Origin: Taibaiella chishuiensis
GTDB lineage: Bacteria; Bacteroidota; Bacteroidia; Chitinophagales; Chitinophagaceae
NCBI RefSeq assembly: GCF_003014535.1
Contig: NZ_PYGD01000001.1
Span: 868,001-932,000, forward strand
DNA length: 64,000 nucleotides
Reading direction: 5' to 3'
The notes under the pieces are model-generated. The model was not told the origin of the DNA. It ran no database searches and saw only the letters and a list, made by a program, of their open reading frames with translations. This document shows, piece by piece, positions 29,634 through 35,297 of the stretch (its first letter is position 1; each line of letters starts with the position of its first letter). Both the position numbers and the translations under genes were made by a program.

Positions 29634-30755
29634 TTAATAATCGATCACCTGCTCCTGGTGCTCCGGCATTTCGCGGAACTCGTATTGCTGGTTACGGAGC
29701 TGCGGTTCGAAACCGGCTTCCCGTATGGCATCCTGTATGCCCTGGGCCGTAAACCGGTGCGGTGCGCCCGCTGCGCTTACCACGTTCTCTTCGATCATAA
29801 TGGAGCCGAAGTCGTTGGCGCCGGCATGCAGGCAAAGCTGGGCCGTTTGTTTACCCACCGTAAGCCAGCTGGCCTGTATGTTCTTTACATTGGGCAGCAT
29901 AATACGGCTCATCGCGATCATACGGATATATTCTTCGGCCGTGGTATCGTTTTTGGCGCGGCGTATACGGCGCAGCAGGGTATCCACGTCCTGGAAGGTC
30001 CAGGGGATAAAGGCTACGAAGCCTTTGGCATCGGCAGGTTTTTTAGCCTGCACATCGCGCAGTTTTACCAGGTGCTCAAAGCGTTCCAGTATCGTTTCCA
30101 CGTGGCCAAACATCATGGTGGCGCTGGTGGTAAGACCAATCTGGTGGGCTACTTCCATAATGTCGAGCCATTCCTGTGCACCGCATTTGCCTTTAGAGAT
30201 CAGGCGGCGTACGCGGTCGTCGAGTATCTCGGCGCCGGGCCCGGGCATGCTGTCCATACCCGCTGCTTTAAGCGTCGTAAGGGCCTCGTGGTAGCTTACT
30301 TTGGATACTTTACAGATATGGGCTATTTCGGGCGGGCCGAGCGCATGCAATTTCAGGTTAGGATATAAGGCCTTCAGCTGTTTGAACAGGCCGGCATAAT
30401 AATCCAGGCCCAGGTCGGGATGGTGCCCGCCCTGCAGCAGCAATTGCTCGCCGCCATAGCGGAAGGTTTCGTCGATCTTGCGCTTATAGGTTTCGATATC
30501 GGTCGTATACCCTTCGGCATGTCCGGGTATGCGGTAGAAGTTGCAAAACTTGCAATTGGCCGTACACACATTCGTGGTATTCATATTCCGGTCGATGATC
30601 CAGGTTACCTTATTGTACGGTACCTGTTTCTTCCGCAATTCGTTGGCGATATAAGACAACTCCGCCAGCGGCGCATTTTCAAAAAGAAATACGCCTTCTT
30701 CCGCCGACAAAAACTCAAAATTCAGCGCGCGTTGATATAGATTCGAAAGATCCAT
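29634..30755 (-). CDS. mqnC: Cyclic dehypoxanthinyl futalosine synthase (radical SAM)
   Basis: MqnC catalyses the radical SAM cyclisation in the futalosine route to menaquinone. The 373-residue protein has the cluster motif CTANCKFC (CxxxCxxC). The MqnC pattern continues with RNMNTTNVCTANC, GGHHPDLGLDYY and DSMPGPGAEILDD, and then NDFGSIMIEENVV near the C-terminus. The start at 30755 (MDLSNLYQRAL) is preferred over an upstream ATG that would include non-family sequence. Its presence indicates menaquinone synthesis by the futalosine pathway rather than the classical MenF-D-H-C-E route; other mqn genes are not in the window. Confidence 0.93.
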   Translation of the reverse strand: MDLSNLYQRALNFEFLSAEEGVFLFENAPLAELSYIANELRKKQVPYNKVTWIIDRNMNTTNVCTANCKFCNFYRIPGHAEGYTTDIETYKRKIDETFRYGGEQLLLQGGHHPDLGLDYYAGLFKQLKALYPNLKLHALGPPEIAHICKVSKVSYHEALTTLKAAGMDSMPGPGAEILDDRVRRLISKGKCGAQEWLDIMEVAHQIGLTTSATMMFGHVETILERFEHLVKLRDVQAKKPADAKGFVAFIPWTFQDVDTLLRRIRRAKNDTTAEEYIRMIAMSRIMLPNVKNIQASWLTVGKQTAQLCLHAGANDFGSIMIEENVVSAAGAPHRFTAQGIQDAIREAGFEPQLRNQQYEFREMPEHQEQVIDY

Positions 30756-31030: not shown

Positions 31031-31038
31031 TAACTTTG
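31031..31038 (+). promoter_or_regulatory. Promoter -7 element for the RNA ligase leader region
   Basis: TAACTTTG is an exact consensus match 33 nt before the first leader ORF. A TTTG lies at 31014-31017, a little closer than usual. Confidence 0.5.
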
Positions 31039-31071
31039 TCCCCGCAAAAAAAGCACGAAAATTAATTCGAG

Positions 31072-31176
31072 ATGAAACAGGTGAATCAACATAACGCAGC
31101 ATTTAAAAGCTTGAGTCCGGTTTGGGCTTATAGCGCGTGCGGGGCTGTTCCTGTTTTTATCTTCAGCAACTTTTAG
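31072..31176 (+). CDS. Leader peptide 1 of the RNA ligase region (34 aa)
   Basis: This short ORF starts ATGAAACAGGTG and encodes 34 residues, including SLSPVWAYSACGAVPVF. It lies directly after a promoter element. Its codons 23-27 contain GCGGGGC and GTTCC, which can pair with GGAAC and GCCCCGC just upstream of and within the terminator at 31203. The ORF therefore spans the antiterminator strand, the hallmark of a ribosome-controlled attenuator. Three of its Ser codons (13, 15 and 21) precede or abut the antiterminator and all four in the peptide are AGC or AGT. Those codons are read by the tRNA-Ser(GCT) encoded downstream. No protein homology is recognised, and its role as a leader is inferred from structure. 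Confidence 0.6.
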   Translation: MKQVNQHNAAFKSLSPVWAYSACGAVPVFIFSNF

Positions 31177-31231
31177 TAGTAAAAAACTGATCATATGGAA
31201 CGAGCCCCGCAATAAAAGCGGGGCTTTTTTT
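31139..31231 (+). promoter_or_regulatory. Attenuator 1: antiterminator/terminator pair
   Basis: Antiterminator: GCGGGGC (31139-31145) plus GTTCC (31147-31151) pairs with GGAAC (31197-31201) plus GCCCCGC (31204-31210), 12 bp in all. Terminator: AGCCCCGC (31203-31210) pairs with GCGGGGCT (31218-31225), followed by a run of seven T. The two are mutually exclusive because both use 31204-31210. The antiterminator strand is within leader ORF 1. Confidence 0.7.
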
Positions 31232-31296
31232 ATGTTGCCCTTCCCGGGTTTCAACAAGGCAGTAAATTAAAATATTAAAGCAAAACATCCTATAAC

Positions 31297-31461
31297 ATGT
31301 CGCTGACCAACAAACATCATAATACAACATCCTGGTTTACGCTGCAAAGTAGCGCATTGCCGGTGGCGCCTTTTATGAAAAGTGCGGGCCAGGGTAGTTT
31401 TATGCTGTATGCATATATACGTAAAATCAAACGACTGAGTTGTTTTGTCTTGCAGGATTAA
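31297..31461 (+). CDS. Leader peptide 2 of the RNA ligase region (54 aa)
   Basis: This second short ORF follows the first terminator and encodes 54 residues, including TTSWFTLQSSALPVAPF and KSAGQGSFMLYAYIRK. Codons 29-31 contain AGTGCGGG, which can pair with CCCGCAGT in the second terminator. Two adjacent AGT-AGC Ser codons (18-19) lie about 30 nt before the antiterminator. A ribosome stalled there would leave that strand free. The stop codon lies inside a small GCAGG/CCTGC hairpin. It resembles leader 1 in layout but not in sequence. Confidence 0.5.
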   Translation: MSLTNKHHNTTSWFTLQSSALPVAPFMKSAGQGSFMLYAYIRKIKRLSCFVLQD

Positions 31462-31512
31462 CCTGCTTTCGAAAGAGATGAACCCCGCAGTCTGACCACT
31501 GCGGGGTTTTTT
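31381..31512 (+). promoter_or_regulatory. Attenuator 2: antiterminator/terminator pair
   Basis: AGTGCGGG (31381-31388) can pair with CCCGCAGT (31484-31491), seven of eight positions. The competing terminator is a perfect 11-bp stem, AACCCCGCAGT (31481-31491) with ACTGCGGGGTT (31498-31508), followed by a T run to 31512. The RNA ligase ATG lies 40 nt beyond. Confidence 0.6.
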
Positions 31513-31552
31513 ATGTTAACCCGATTCTTCTAAAACGAAAAGATTAAATATC

Positions 31553-32533
31553 ATGAGAAAATTAGCATCGATCCAGCGGATAAGAAGCCTGGAGCGTATT
31601 GAAGGGGCCGACGTCATTGAAAAAGCCACCGTACTGGGCTGGCAACTTGTCGTTAAAAAAGAGGAGTTCAAGGTTGGTGAATTGTGCGTGTATATTGAAA
31701 TAGACAGCGTGTTGCCGGAGACCGCGATGTTCGAATTCCTGAGGAGCAAGAACTTCAGGATAAAAACAATGAAGCTGCGGGGGCAGGTATCACAAGGTAT
31801 CTGTTTCCCCTTGAGCATCCTGCCTGCTGGCACTGCTATCGAAGAGGGTATGGAGGTAACCGGCTTGCTGGGCATCAAAAAATTTGAACCCCTTATTCCA
31901 TCATCGTTGTCCGGTTTAATGAAAGGAAATTTCCCTTCGTTTATTCCCAGGACTGATGAAACAAGGGTGCAACTTTTAGAAGAACTGTTGTTAGAACATG
32001 CCGGAAGGCCTTGTTACATCACGGAAAAACTGGATGGCACCTCAGCCACATATTTTGTAAAAGACGGGGAGTTCGGCGTATGCAGCCGCAATATGGAACT
32101 GCACCGGGAGGACCGGAACATATACTGGCAGATGGCCGATACGCTTGACCTGGAGCGGAAACTGAAGCGCCTGGGTGATAACATAGCTATCCAGGGTGAG
32201 CTTGTTGGGGAGCAAATCCAGGGGAATAAGCTAAAACTGCAAGGACAGCAATTGTTTGTTTTCAGTGTATTCCTGATCGATGAATACCGTTATGCATCTC
32301 TTTCCCGGATGAAAGAGCTGGCAGCGCAGATGGATGTACAGCTGGCGCCGGTATTGGATGAGGACTATGCCCTGGATGCCGGTATCCGCAATATCCTGGA
32401 AATGGCCGAACGCAACTCGGTACTCTGCCCAGAGGCAAAAGCCGAGGGTATTGTTATACGGGTTAAGGATGCAAAGGAGCATATTTCCTTTAAGGTGATC
32501 AGCAATACATTTTTACTCCAATACGATGAATAA
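31553..32533 (+). CDS. RNA ligase, DRB0094/Rnl5 family
   Basis: This 326-residue ATP-dependent RNA ligase is like Deinococcus radiodurans DRB0094. The N-terminal OB-fold-like module (about residues 1-120) includes GELCVYIEIDSVLPE and MKLRGQVSQGICFPL. The nucleotidyltransferase domain has motif I TEKLDGTSATYF with the adenylated Lys159. It also has motif III-like AIQGELVGEQIQGNK, motif IV AEGIVIRVK and motif V SFKVISN. This order, OB module first, is the family signature. The Deinococcus enzyme seals 3'-OH/5'-phosphate breaks in nicked duplexes. Here the gene is preceded by two leader-peptide attenuators and followed by three tRNA-Ser genes and an RNase H-like gene, which points to tRNA or RNA repair. 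The physiological substrate is unknown. Confidence 0.9.
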   Translation: MRKLASIQRIRSLERIEGADVIEKATVLGWQLVVKKEEFKVGELCVYIEIDSVLPETAMFEFLRSKNFRIKTMKLRGQVSQGICFPLSILPAGTAIEEGMEVTGLLGIKKFEPLIPSSLSGLMKGNFPSFIPRTDETRVQLLEELLLEHAGRPCYITEKLDGTSATYFVKDGEFGVCSRNMELHREDRNIYWQMADTLDLERKLKRLGDNIAIQGELVGEQIQGNKLKLQGQQLFVFSVFLIDEYRYASLSRMKELAAQMDVQLAPVLDEDYALDAGIRNILEMAERNSVLCPEAKAEGIVIRVKDAKEHISFKVISNTFLLQYDE

Positions 32534-32538
32534 TAAAA

Positions 32539-32573
32539 CGGGCATATAGCGGCAAATGGTCTGTCGCTGCCCG
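32539..32573 (+). terminator. Hairpin after the RNA ligase gene (repeated in each unit)
   Basis: CGGGC (32539-32543) pairs with GCCCG (32569-32573), and inside it AGCGGC (32548-32553) pairs with GTCGCT (32563-32568). Unit 2 has GCCGCT in the second strand, which changes a G-U pair to G-C. The T run is weak (CTTTA). It may be a leaky terminator or a processing signal, allowing read-through into the tRNA. Confidence 0.5.
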
Positions 32574-32614
32574 CTTTACAGGATGGCGCGGGTCAATATT
32601 TCTCAAAGTAACCC

Positions 32615-32699
32615 GGTAGATTACTCAAATGGTCAAGAGGGCAGTTTGCTAAACTGTTAGGGCCGCAAGGCTGCATTGGTTCGAATCCAATATCTACCG
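32615..32699 (+). tRNA. tRNA-Ser (anticodon GCT), copy 1
   Basis: The acceptor stem is GGTAGAT/ATCTACC (7 bp) and the D stem is CTC/GAG. The anticodon stem is GCAGT/ACTGT with loop TTGCTAA, so the anticodon is GCT (32648-32650). A long variable arm (type II, GGCC-GCAA-GGCT) is present. The T stem is ATTGG/CCAAT with loop TTCGAAT. The discriminator is G and the 3' CCA is not encoded. It reads AGC and AGU codons. All structural positions look functional. Confidence 0.95.
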
Positions 32700-32950
32700 C
32701 AAAAAATAATCAACCCGAATAGCCCGGTATAATAGCCGGCTGTGTAAGAATATGAAAATTGCTCCAATACGATGAATAGTAAAACGGGCATATAGCGGCA
32801 AATGGCCTGCCGCTGCCCGCTTTACAGGATTGCAGGAAGAAGTCGTCTCTAACTTATGAGGTAAAGGGGCGCAAATGGATGCGGAGCACAGGCTTCAGGC
32901 GCCGGCGAGGACCCGCAATTAAGGCGGATCAATATTTCTCAAAGTAACCC

Positions 32951-33035
32951 GGTAGATTACTCAAATGGTCAAGAGGGCAGTTTGCTAAACTGTTAGGGCC
33001 GCAAGGCTGCATTGGTTCGAATCCAATATCTACCG
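32951..33035 (+). tRNA. tRNA-Ser (anticodon GCT), copy 2
   Basis: The 85 nt are identical to copy 1, with the same type II cloverleaf and GCT anticodon. The upstream 25 nt (TCAATATTTCTCAAAGTAACC) are conserved in all three copies, but the region before them differs in this unit because of its ~90-bp extra sequence. Confidence 0.95.
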
Positions 33036-33196
33036 CAAAAAATAATCAACCCGAATAGCCCGGTATAATAGCCGGCTGTGTAAGAATATGAAAATTGCTC
33101 CAATACGATGAATAATAAAACGGGCATATAGCGGCAAATGGCCTGTCGCTGCCCGCTTTACAGGATGGCGCGGGTCAATATTTCTCAAAGTAACCC

Positions 33197-33281
33197 GGTA
33201 GATTACTCAAATGGTCAAGAGGGCAGTTTGCTAAACTGTTAGGGCCGCAAGGCTGCATTGGTTCGAATCCAATATCTACCG
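33197..33281 (+). tRNA. tRNA-Ser (anticodon GCT), copy 3
   Basis: The 85 nt are identical to copies 1 and 2. The RNase H-like gene starts 52 nt downstream, so this tRNA lies in its 5' region and may be released from a longer transcript. Confidence 0.95.
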
Positions 33282-33333
33282 CAAAAAATAATCACCCCGA
33301 ATAGCCCGGTACAACAACCGGCTGTGTAAGAAC

Positions 33334-33822
33334 ATGAAAACAGAAATAACATCCTGGCGGCGGCTTGCCGGGCACCGGATCGAAATGCCGATCGAAGAAG
33401 AGATCCGCAGGGCAATCGTGCGCGAACATGCTGCAGGGCATAAGCTGAAAGCCTGCATTGGTACAGACAGCCAGGTTAAAGGCGGGGATATAGCAATAGC
33501 AACCGTTATCGTATTGTTGCGGCAAGGTTGCGGTGGCTTTATGTATATCCACAAAGAGGTTTTAAATAAAGAGATGCGTATCCGGGAGCGGATGCTGTAC
33601 GAGGTATCGAAGAGTGTTTCGGTCGCTTACGCGTTATGTGGTTTGTTTACGGCACACGGCATTGCCATGGAGGTGCATGCAGACATCAATACCGACCCCT
33701 TATTTAAAAGTAATGCTGCACTGAAAGATGCCATGGGATACATTACCGGCATGGGCTTTACCTTCAAAGCCAAGCCCGATGCTTTTGCCAGTACCAGCTG
33801 TGCCAATAAAATCGTGCATTAA
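33334..33822 (+). CDS. RNase H-like protein of the YkuK family
   Basis: This 162-residue protein has the YkuK/DUF458 ribonuclease H-like fold. The first strand with its acidic residue is ACIGTDSQVKGGDIAIATVI. The second acidic region is EVHADINTDPLF, and the C-terminal helix contains KPDAFASTSCANKIVH. Bacillus YkuK has no established substrate. The ATG at 33334 is in the third copy of the tandem segment. Its start region is duplicated at the two upstream junctions as dead-end mini-ORFs. Placement after an RNA ligase and tRNA genes suggests an RNA-processing role; that is inference. Confidence 0.8.
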   Translation: MKTEITSWRRLAGHRIEMPIEEEIRRAIVREHAAGHKLKACIGTDSQVKGGDIAIATVIVLLRQGCGGFMYIHKEVLNKEMRIRERMLYEVSKSVSVAYALCGLFTAHGIAMEVHADINTDPLFKSNAALKDAMGYITGMGFTFKAKPDAFASTSCANKIVH

Positions 33823-33872: not shown

Positions 33873-35297
33873 CTAAACTTTTATCTTTTTCCAGCGTCCT
33901 TTTTTAAACAGGATAAACGCTGCCACACTGATCGCCGTTTCGGCAACGGGGATGGCAATAAACACGCCTTCCGGCCCCATATCGATGTATTTGGCCAGGA
34001 ACCAGGCCAGGGGCACCTGGAACAGCCAGAAGCCGCAAAGGTTTACCCAGGTGGGCGTCCAGGTATCGCCGGCGCCGTTAAAGGTATTGATCATCACCAT
34101 GCCGATACCATAGAAGATATAACCGGCGCTCATGATGCGCAGGGCCTGCCGGCCCACGGCCTTGATGGCTTCGTCCTGGGTAAAGAACGATACCAGCCAG
34201 TTGCCGAAGAAGAAGAACAGCACAGTCACGAAGAGCATGAACACTACATTGTACCGCACCGTCTTCATTACCGACTCTTCGGCCCGGTCGATGCGCTCTG
34301 CACCCAGGTTCTGACCTACCAGGGTGGAGGCGGCATTGCTCATACCCCAGGCCGGCAACATAAAGAACATCATCAGGCGCAGCGCCGTCTGGTAACCGGC
34401 CGAACCGTTGTCGCCGCCGGTAGTGGCCACCAGCTGCGCCAGGAAGATCCAGCTGCAGGAAGCGATCACGAACTGGAAGATGCCGGGAGTGGCGATACCC
34501 ACCAGCGATTTGATGACGGGGAACTCGGGTTTGAAATGACTGATCCGGATCTTGAGCTGGTGCTTGCCATAGAACAGGTGATAGGCCTGGTAAGCCACGC
34601 CGGTAGCCCTGCCTATGGTGGTGGCCATGGCTGCGCCGGTAAGTCCGAAGGCCGGTATAAAGCCGAAGCCGTTGATCAGCAGCGGACACAGCACGATGTT
34701 ACAGATATTGGCCAGCCACAGGCTTTTCATGGCGATGGCTGCATTACCCGCACCGCGGAATATACCATTGATCAGGAATAACAACATGACCACGATGCTA
34801 CCGCCCATAGTAATGCGGATAAAGGGCGTGCCCTTGGTTACCGTTTCGGGCGAAGCGCCCATGATCTTTAAAATCTCAGGGGAGTAATAAAGCCCGGCAA
34901 GGCTAAGCAGTACCGTTACGGCAGAAGCTACGATAATGGCCTGAACGCCTGCCTGGGCAGCCTTTTCGGGGTTTTTCTCACCGACACGCCGCGCTACCAC
35001 CGCGGTGGCGGCCATACTCATGCCTATGGCGATAGAGTACATAATGGTCAGTACGGATTCGGTAAGACCCACGGTCTGGATGGCATGGCTGCTGTCTTCC
35101 AGGTGGCCTACAAAGTAGAGGTCCACCAGGGCGAATACAGACTCCATGATCATTTCAAGCATCATGGGTACAGCCAGCATAATGACGGCTTTGCGGATGC
35201 TGCCCTGGGTATAATCCATCTCTTCGCCGCGCAGGGCTTGTTTGAACAATGTAATATAGTTCGATGCTTTGGAAGCACCGTTAGTCGGATGGGACAT
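33873..35297 (-). CDS. MATE-family efflux transporter
   Basis: This 474-residue protein has about twelve hydrophobic helices. It has MATE features such as MLAVPMMLEMIMESVFALVD, the GAGNAAIAMKS motif of the first half and FNGAGDTWTPTWVNL in the second. The family exports cationic drugs and metabolites using H+ or Na+ gradients. The N-terminal ~30 residues are hydrophilic. It ends close to the bidirectional terminator and appears monocistronic. The substrate cannot be inferred. Confidence 0.93.
   Translation of the reverse strand: MSHPTNGASKASNYITLFKQALRGEEMDYTQGSIRKAVIMLAVPMMLEMIMESVFALVDLYFVGHLEDSSHAIQTVGLTESVLTIMYSIAIGMSMAATAVVARRVGEKNPEKAAQAGVQAIIVASAVTVLLSLAGLYYSPEILKIMGASPETVTKGTPFIRITMGGSIVVMLLFLINGIFRGAGNAAIAMKSLWLANICNIVLCPLLINGFGFIPAFGLTGAAMATTIGRATGVAYQAYHLFYGKHQLKIRISHFKPEFPVIKSLVGIATPGIFQFVIASCSWIFLAQLVATTGGDNGSAGYQTALRLMMFFMLPAWGMSNAASTLVGQNLGAERIDRAEESVMKTVRYNVVFMLFVTVLFFFFGNWLVSFFTQDEAIKAVGRQALRIMSAGYIFYGIGMVMINTFNGAGDTWTPTWVNLCGFWLFQVPLAWFLAKYIDMGPEGVFIAIPVAETAISVAAFILFKKGRWKKIKV

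Follow-up and report, generated by a model that had tools for sequence, protein, structure and literature searches.

Predicted serial leader attenuators before spare tRNA genes in Taibaiella chishuiensis and its relatives: a candidate self-inventory circuit

Introduction

What would hold a set of spare tRNA genes silent, and what would release them? The question is raised by a locus in a 64,000-nucleotide stretch of the genome of Taibaiella chishuiensis (Bacteroidota; Chitinophagaceae), here called the window (RefSeq assembly GCF_003014535.1, contig NZ_PYGD01000001.1, positions 868,001 to 932,000 of the forward strand). At positions 31031 to 33822 of the window, two short leader open reading frames (ORFs), each followed by a terminator, precede a predicted RNA ligase gene, three tRNA-Ser(GCT) genes and ykuK, which encodes a predicted RNase H-like protein. 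A first-pass annotation had read this as an RNA-repair locus centred on the ligase.

The best explanation of the locus, and in our judgement a likely one from the sequences compared, is ribosome-mediated attenuation, in which stalling at the codons of depleted tRNAs would open an operon of spare tRNAs. Going further, we lean towards a self-inventory circuit. Silent spare tRNA genes would stand behind two serial attenuators, with leaders selected to hold the codons of the array before the decision point, and a lack of the housekeeping counterpart, as might follow cleavage by an anticodon nuclease, would release each spare. The leaders and their array would co-evolve, and in the window both would have narrowed towards the tRNA for AGC/AGU serine codons. 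What is seen directly is the anatomy of the locus, its recurrence and conservation, a diversity of amino acids that is limited to the part of the leaders where stalling is predicted, and a match between leader codons and array tRNAs.

Results

A recurrent unit of leaders, tRNA genes and ykuK

The window locus is a single plus-strand unit between mqnC and a MATE transporter gene, both on the minus strand. Its features, followed by the two neighbours, are:

31031-31038, plus strand: candidate -7 element TAACTTTG of a Bacteroidota-type promoter, a weak pattern match to what we take to be the consensus
31072-31176, plus strand: leader ORF 1, 34 codons (34 amino acids), with a Ser-Pro pair (AGT CCG) and four AGC/AGT codons
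31138-31151, plus strand: predicted antiterminator strand (strand 2) of attenuator 1, TGCGGGGCTGTTCC, from the duplex test and ribosome-masking models
31197-31210, plus strand: predicted strand 3 of attenuator 1, overlapping the 5' arm of terminator 1, from the duplex test
31202-31226, plus strand: terminator 1, a stem-loop of 9 pairs (7 GC) and then a T-run
31297-31461, plus strand: leader ORF 2, 54 codons, with 19 of the 20 amino acids and five AGC/AGT codons
31480-31509, plus strand: terminator 2, a stem-loop of 12 pairs (7 GC) and then a T-run
31553-32533, plus strand: Rnl5/DRB0094-family RNA ligase gene (TIGR02306), apparently accessory to the unit
32615-32700, plus strand: array tRNA-Ser(GCT), copy 1
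32951-33036, plus strand: array tRNA-Ser(GCT), copy 2
33197-33282, plus strand: array tRNA-Ser(GCT), copy 3
32513-33340, plus strand: direct repeats of 246 nt with one tRNA-Ser each, spaced by 336 and 246 nt
33334-33822, plus strand: ykuK (PF04308, RNase H-like), last gene of the unit
29637-30755, minus strand: mqnC (TIGR03699)
33876-35297, minus strand: MATE transporter gene

Most of what the first-pass annotation had named is there, all on one strand: both leader ORFs, two strong terminators, an Rnl5-family ligase, three identical tRNA-Ser(GCT) genes and a YkuK-type gene. Terminators 1 and 2 have the most GC pairs on the plus strand among 11 terminator-like sites in the region, compared with 4.4 +/- 2.3 such sites in its shuffles. 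The promoter survives in part, as the -7-like sequence, for which no good -33 partner was established. A search of the window at the Rfam gathering cut-offs returned the three tRNAs only, with no T-box riboswitch match upstream. The first 246-nt repeat starts inside the 3' end of the ligase gene.

Comparison of loci indicates that the recurrent unit in Chitinophagaceae is tandem leader/terminator pairs, a tRNA array and ykuK. The ykuK gene is present in 359 of the 394 family genomes, which rules it out as a specific marker of the ligase. We read 66 ykuK loci, six at hand and 60 that we picked non-randomly from the listed best places and spread over genera. tRNA genes were chained upstream of ykuK in 39 of them, in arrays of 1-18 tRNAs (271 in total; ARAGORN calls only, single tRNAs included). 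At least two leader-plus-terminator pairs were found in 32 of the 37 ykuK loci with upstream tRNAs versus 3 of the 26 without (Fisher 2e-9; 63 loci counted, three of the 66 with less than 900 nt upstream being dropped), and five of those 32 carry the ligase. In a ligase-free genome of the same genus (G001), the unit occupies the corresponding site, flanked by mqnC and the MATE gene, in the order leader 1, terminator, leader 2, terminator, tRNA-Gln, tRNA-His, tRNA-Ser(GCT), tRNA-Phe, ykuK. The term tRNA array unit denotes a large, dense array of about 20 or more tRNA genes; with three tRNAs in the window and 1-18 in the ykuK-linked arrays, the units described here are smaller.

The terminators are mostly of two kinds, with the cores GCCCCGC and GCCCGGTCG, and the second terminator in the window's genus is of a further kind (CCCCGCAGT and alike). 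Two viral contigs that are alike around the site (L236:1087-1113 and L237:9648-9674; L marks a locus and G a genome) have the same kind of terminator directly before a tRNA array, which on L237 comprises 19 tRNAs, and a short GTG ORF lies upstream on these contigs. Array content is skewed over the 39 loci: tRNA-Phe occurs in 30, Lys in 26, His and Asn in 22 and Gln and Arg in 21, while Ala is found in two loci, Cys in one and Thr in none.

Leader peptides and predicted antitermination

Leaders were picked by script as the longest ATG ORF of at most 75 amino acids that ended between -45 and +8 nt from a perfect-stem terminator. Some picks are plainly false, such as the third hairpins of L181 and L185 and the first of L189 and L231. 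By length, and post hoc, we delimited a leader-1 set (28-35 amino acids, n = 35, without L198) and a leader-2 set (46-60 amino acids, n = 33, without L220), which left out among others leader 2 of L067, L198 and L201 and leader 1 of L179.

By sequence, an intrinsic terminator is present between leader and first gene, and the spacing from the leader stop to strand 2 and the terminator is narrow. Leader 1 has exactly 30 codons in 22 of the 35 loci. In 24 of the 35 the predicted antiterminator strand, in many cases GCGGGGC, stops 19 nt short of the end of the ORF, and in 28 it stops 19-20 nt short; the leader-1 duplexes beat mononucleotide shuffles at p<0.05 in 30 of 35. For attenuator 1 of the window, the duplex has a dG of -25.4 versus -13.5 +/- 2.5 in shuffled leaders, none of 400 being as good. 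In L178 and L200 the leader strand and the terminator have changed together.

A cut model, in which the RNA ends before the 3' arm of the terminator and the ribosome shields the stretch from 18 nt upstream to 14 nt downstream of the start of the A site, showed the expected pattern in most of 13 leaders: with the ribosome at early codons the 5' arm of the terminator pairs with the leader, and with the ribosome over later codons this pairing is lost. A Ser-Pro pair occurs in 23 of the 35 leader-1 peptides, and in 21 of these 23 the Pro codon lies 20-23 nt before strand 2.

Amino acid diversity before the predicted decision point

Leader 1 contains on average 18.2 distinct amino acids, compared with 14.9 expected from the composition of window proteins and 15.5 from that of the pooled leaders (n = 35). 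Leader 2 contains 19.3, with 17.5 and 18.1 expected (n = 33). All 20 amino acids are present in 5 of 35 leader-1 and 17 of 33 leader-2 peptides.

In a further comparison, residues were permuted within the columns of the alignment, which keeps the composition of each position (30-residue leader-1 peptides, n = 22). Codons 2-18 of leader 1 held 13.23 distinct amino acids versus 11.97 (sd 0.19), a value reached in none of 4000 shuffles, and codons 19-30 showed no excess (8.27 versus 8.42). The leader-1 excess thus lies wholly in codons 2-18, upstream of the antiterminator strand; the zone boundary had been taken from a masking model of a few loci before this test. The excess persists after thinning to <50% identity (n = 9, 0.0008), and leader 2 gives 19.33 versus 18.58 (sd 0.16).

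The conserved length of the leaders, together with their compensating content, points to translation of the leaders. The contrary account is that the leaders are untranslated, the terminators ordinary or controlled by a protein, and the array a cluster of mobile or phage origin, in decay and retained for the sake of codon usage. The terminators before viral tRNA arrays suit such an account, as does variable presence: two of four genomes of the genus have the ligase, and G174 has no tRNA or ykuK in the 1.5 kb examined beside mqnC. The length of exactly 30 codons in 22 of 35 leader-1 ORFs, the compensating content of codons 2-18 and the narrow range of distances that separate the leader stop from strand 2 and from the terminator are, however, not expected of untranslated DNA, and we consider decay highly improbable.

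A pure pangram, with every leader holding all 20 amino acids, was rejected. It is supported on average in Chitinophagaceae and fails for the leaders of the window and for those of L123 (15 and 18 distinct amino acids in the L123 pair), so the idea was replaced by that of a match between codons and array.

Leader codons match the tRNAs of the array

The match was examined in the 29 loci with both leaders and an array, by permuting arrays among loci. Codon families of array tRNAs were present in both leaders in 196 of 207 cases, versus 173.3 (sd 4.0) with permuted arrays. The excess held after thinning (103 of 110 versus 90.2; 17 loci) and after thinning to <50% identity (67 of 70 versus 57.7 +/- 2.6; 13 loci), and in each of the three comparisons none of 2000 permutations did as well. 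A test on amino acid frequency agrees, also without the window, and 17 of 19 codon families have a higher mean in loci with the matching tRNA. Across amino acids, array presence and leader enrichment showed no correlation (Spearman 0.26, p 0.26).

The match is strongest in the early zones of both leaders (leader 1, 175 of 207 versus 154.3, z 5.4; leader 2, 202 of 207 versus 191.2, z 3.5). A set of five loci from another order had 42 of its 48 array families in both leaders, versus 31 of 72 other families; the same count in the ykuK set gave 196 of 209 versus 354 of 487. For the other order, leader starts were chosen by eye (GTG for L142 leader 1) and every same-strand tRNA was counted as array. 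The match tests were run one after another on the same loci, and the five loci of the other order are the only separate set. The both-leader match relates the control codons to the product of the operon in two orders.

These data also bear on a general translation-stress switch, in which any slowed elongation, for example by ribosome-targeting antibiotics and perhaps at Ser-Pro, would open the operon and the array would be a general reserve as in Anabaena. The codon-array match would then be incidental, arising from leaders that cover nearly all amino acids or from common descent. Such a switch is in keeping with the several leaders that hold all 20 amino acids, with the recurrent placement of Ser-Pro before strand 2 and with the Anabaena trn operon, which in the part of the source considered is described as 26 tRNAs, silent and induced by translation-targeting antibiotics (PMC10272220). 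It accounts less well for a both-leader match that beats permuted arrays even at <50% identity, or for its recurrence in another order where leaders are less complete (L123). We regard a general switch as doubtful.

A model of the circuit

Under ribosome-mediated attenuation, transcription would start upstream of leader 1. In a healthy cell the ribosome would trail RNA polymerase through each leader and cover the antiterminator strand, which lies towards the 3' end of the ORF; with that strand covered, the terminators would form and the operon would be off. If a tRNA were depleted, that is uncharged, cut or titrated, and its codon lay early in the leader, the ribosome would stall before the strand, which could then pair with the 5' arm of the terminator and let transcription continue. 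Two such units in series would act as an AND gate, so a codon would be needed in both leaders for full sensing. Since the leaders hold the codon families of the array's own tRNAs, the operon would sense a shortage of what it supplies, and shortage of the array tRNAs would probably turn on their own replacement. From the sequence comparison we infer leader translation, stalling, control of termination and the AND logic. The earlier proposal that leader stalling favours antitermination, with tRNA shortage as the likely signal, gains backing from this comparison of loci.

Several observations weigh against attenuation by array codons. Presence in at least one leader is near its ceiling (207 of 207 versus 203.9; in the 13 loci, 70 of 70 versus 68.1, 0.08), so the case rests on presence in both. 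The late zones also show a weaker excess (leader 1, 62 of 207 versus 54.8; leader 2, 97 of 207 versus 87.8; z 2.1 each). Loci with tRNA-Lys or tRNA-Phe show no enrichment of the matching codons, and taken singly no more than 7 of the 19 families are significant at p<0.05. The loci are related, so the permutation values are not strict probabilities. In the window itself the diversity signal is absent: the stall zones, read by eye from the cut model, hold 11 distinct amino acids in 18 residues of leader 1 (p 0.73) and 16 in 40 residues of leader 2 (p 0.68). Strand 2 of the window ends 30 nt before the ORF end and not 19.

Antitermination at leader 2 is also less evident. Its duplexes reach p<0.05 in only 12 of 33 loci. 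The first-pass claim of an antiterminator strand for each leader stands for leader 1 of the window and not for leader 2, where no significant strand was found (39% of 400 shuffles as good; p 0.76). The cut model is unclear for window leader 2 and the L123 leaders, and with the ribosome at the stop codon it leaves some strands free. For most leaders, a whole-transcript equilibrium model prefers the terminator at almost every position of the ribosome.

The tRNA-Ser(GCT) array of the window

The window array consists of tRNA-Ser(GCT) only, and its leaders have the highest share of AGC/AGT codons among 39 loci (9 of 86 codons, 10.5%; mean 4.4%); the second highest is in L145, from the same genus. 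This single case fits a joint narrowing of array and sensor. Another candidate, a sensor of charged tRNA-Ser only, is true in tendency for the window; given the many tRNAs and varied leaders of its relatives, it amounts to a special case.

The genome of the window (G000) has a separate tRNA-Ser(GCT) gene at G000:C6:46929-47017, with the same anticodon arm and a different body. When this genome was searched at the DNA level with the array tRNA, only the three array places were returned. On visual comparison the array copy is nearer to those in the arrays of two same-genus genomes. A cleavage-resistant anticodon loop in the array tRNA-Ser found no support: at the anticodon, array and housekeeping copies alike read GTTTGCTAAAC, and their differences lie in the body.

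Two unusual tRNA regions were seen elsewhere. L069:6931-7708 (G358) has several tRNA-like stretches with extra palindromic inserts, such as CCCGATAGCTATCGGG, some of them uncalled by ARAGORN. At G000:C10:99482-99634 (L048:183-335), ARAGORN calls two adjacent tRNAs with the four-base anticodons cttg and cttt.

The RNA ligase as an optional addition

Rnl5/DRB0094-family ligases seal 3'-OH/5'-phosphate ends. The window ligase belongs to this family by curated model (TIGR02306, 185.6 bits, cut-off 151.15), also matches PF21189 and PF09414, contains KLDGT (the KxDG nucleotidyl-transferase motif) in its translation, and resembles the solved NgrRnl (E 1.2e-59). All searches pooled, relatives were found in 41 distinct genomes. 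There were 13 matches in 394 family genomes (E limit 1e-3), 19 in 396 order genomes and 2 of 4, 1 of 10 and 2 of 12 genomes in three genera, the first being that of the window (1e-20), and 8 in 395 class genomes and 7 in 87 genomes of the order of G715 (1e-60).

A same-strand tRNA array lies beside the ligase in 11 of the 41 genomes (the window, L067, L068, L069, L122, L123 and L138-L142). The other 30 lack one, which by the refuting condition set beforehand in the first-pass annotation speaks against a ligase-centred locus. Among these 30, L077 does have a pair of tRNAs, 2-3 kb upstream, and L101 a pair on the opposite strand. A scan of up to 1.2 kb upstream of the ligase in 29 of these 30 found one hairpin (L074); the scan was strict and short, missing the L069 leaders, which lie farther up, and leaving out L143 at a contig end. 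The ykuK gene stands with the window ligase and four relatives at 61-66% identity, and no ykuK match was found in the stretches examined around six array-linked ligases of another order (54-55% identity). Conversely, the ligase is present in 5 of the 66 ykuK loci, and 34 of the 39 ykuK-linked arrays have none in the stretch examined; 27 of these 34 carry at least two leader-plus-terminator pairs.

These counts bear on an Rnl5-centred RNA-repair operon, in which the leaders would sense tRNA breakage, the ligase would mend it, and the tRNAs and ykuK would be helpers. Family membership and closeness to NgrRnl are consistent with repair, as is the company that the ligase keeps in another order, where its neighbours include arrays, a Thg1-like gene (L139) and, nearby, TROVE/Ro60 (L123). 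In the stretches examined, however, most ykuK-linked arrays are ligase-free and most ligases array-less, which rules out the ligase as founder of the unit and argues against it as the centre that the first-pass annotation had made of it. We consider such an operon very unlikely. The ligase is, as far as sequence comparison goes, an optional addition to the unit, as are the Thg1-like and Ro60 genes. Where present, it could also re-seal cut tRNAs, and a Thg1-like protein could repair tRNA 5' ends. Of the idea that the locus senses and mends broken tRNA, sensing and replacing fits the core better, and mending is plausible where a ligase or Thg1-like gene has been added.

Thg1-like genes lie between tandem leaders and the Rnl5 ligase with its tRNA array at L139:7738-8496 (minus strand) and L140:5434-6147 (plus strand), both in another order; the first was assigned by test to PF04446 and the second by resemblance. 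Genes for TROVE/Ro60 and a WYL regulator stand by the ligase-tRNA array of L123 (2048-3562 and 3801-4817, tested). ORFs similar to these occur in L139 and L142, and a WYL gene also at L069:1491-2504. In L123, L138, L141 and L142, a common GGTG(T/G)CTCAGTA motif followed by a GC hairpin lies about 150 nt or less upstream of the ligase, in addition to the leaders.

YkuK and its neighbours

YkuK matches PF04308 with 111.9 bits (gathering cut-off 25). It has been placed in the RNase H-like superfamily in the part of the literature source considered, and from that source we read D45, E90 and D117, conserved in at least 97% of 66 YkuK proteins, as candidate RNase H-like catalytic positions (PMC3985635). 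A sequence search returned no solved relative of YkuK. We infer the functions of all proteins discussed here, and our guess for YkuK is a role in processing the array tRNAs or in clearing tRNA fragments.

A protein of 261-265 amino acids adjoins ykuK in three ligase-bearing loci (L068, L069 and L122; L069:4228-5022), with an AAA ATPase gene close by. The L069 copy, which was tested, had no Pfam or PHROG match.

Discussion

Ribosome-mediated transcription attenuation, as in the trp and his operons, is textbook for amino acid operons. The units described here resemble those attenuators in having a short leader ORF, a predicted antiterminator strand near its 3' end, an intrinsic terminator and what would be a stall-dependent switch. 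They differ in that the genes controlled would be tRNA genes and not biosynthetic ones, in having two units in series, and in leaders that hold many codons matched to the array in place of runs of a single codon. We know of no tRNA operon under leaders that list its own codons, and no description of attenuated tRNA operons was found among the matches listed in the open-access literature.

Nearest in purpose is the trn operon of Anabaena PCC 7120, which, in the part of its account considered, likewise comprises silent reserve tRNAs beside housekeeping tRNAs and is linked to translation stress (PMC10272220). There the repressor TrcR acts at the promoter, whereas here two leader attenuators would act and, in Chitinophagaceae, ykuK is the partner. 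The excerpts of the FLSHclust study at hand report tRNA arrays linked to RNase H and other nucleases; these may include the same pairing of tRNA array and ykuK, and those excerpts mention no leaders, attenuators or codon match (PMC10910872). The rtcBA operon under RtcR is similar as an RNA ligase operon that answers tRNA damage. It differs in that tRNA fragments are bound by a CARF activator and the ligase is of another family, and the sections of that account considered mention no reserve tRNAs or leader attenuators (PMC7790460). Mycobacterial tRNA array units likewise consist of additional tRNA genes in clusters, which occur on chromosomes, phages and plasmids, and no attenuator is mentioned in the parts of these sources considered (PMC5966550, PMC12803027).

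If the self-inventory circuit is real, it would constitute a feedback loop for tRNA supply and would explain the silent upkeep of extra tRNA arrays. It would tie the widespread ykuK family to tRNA stress via its operon, and would offer ready-made detectors of tRNA depletion, open to testing one codon at a time. Such a circuit would further indicate tRNA-cutting toxins or phage defence as the pressure behind these units.

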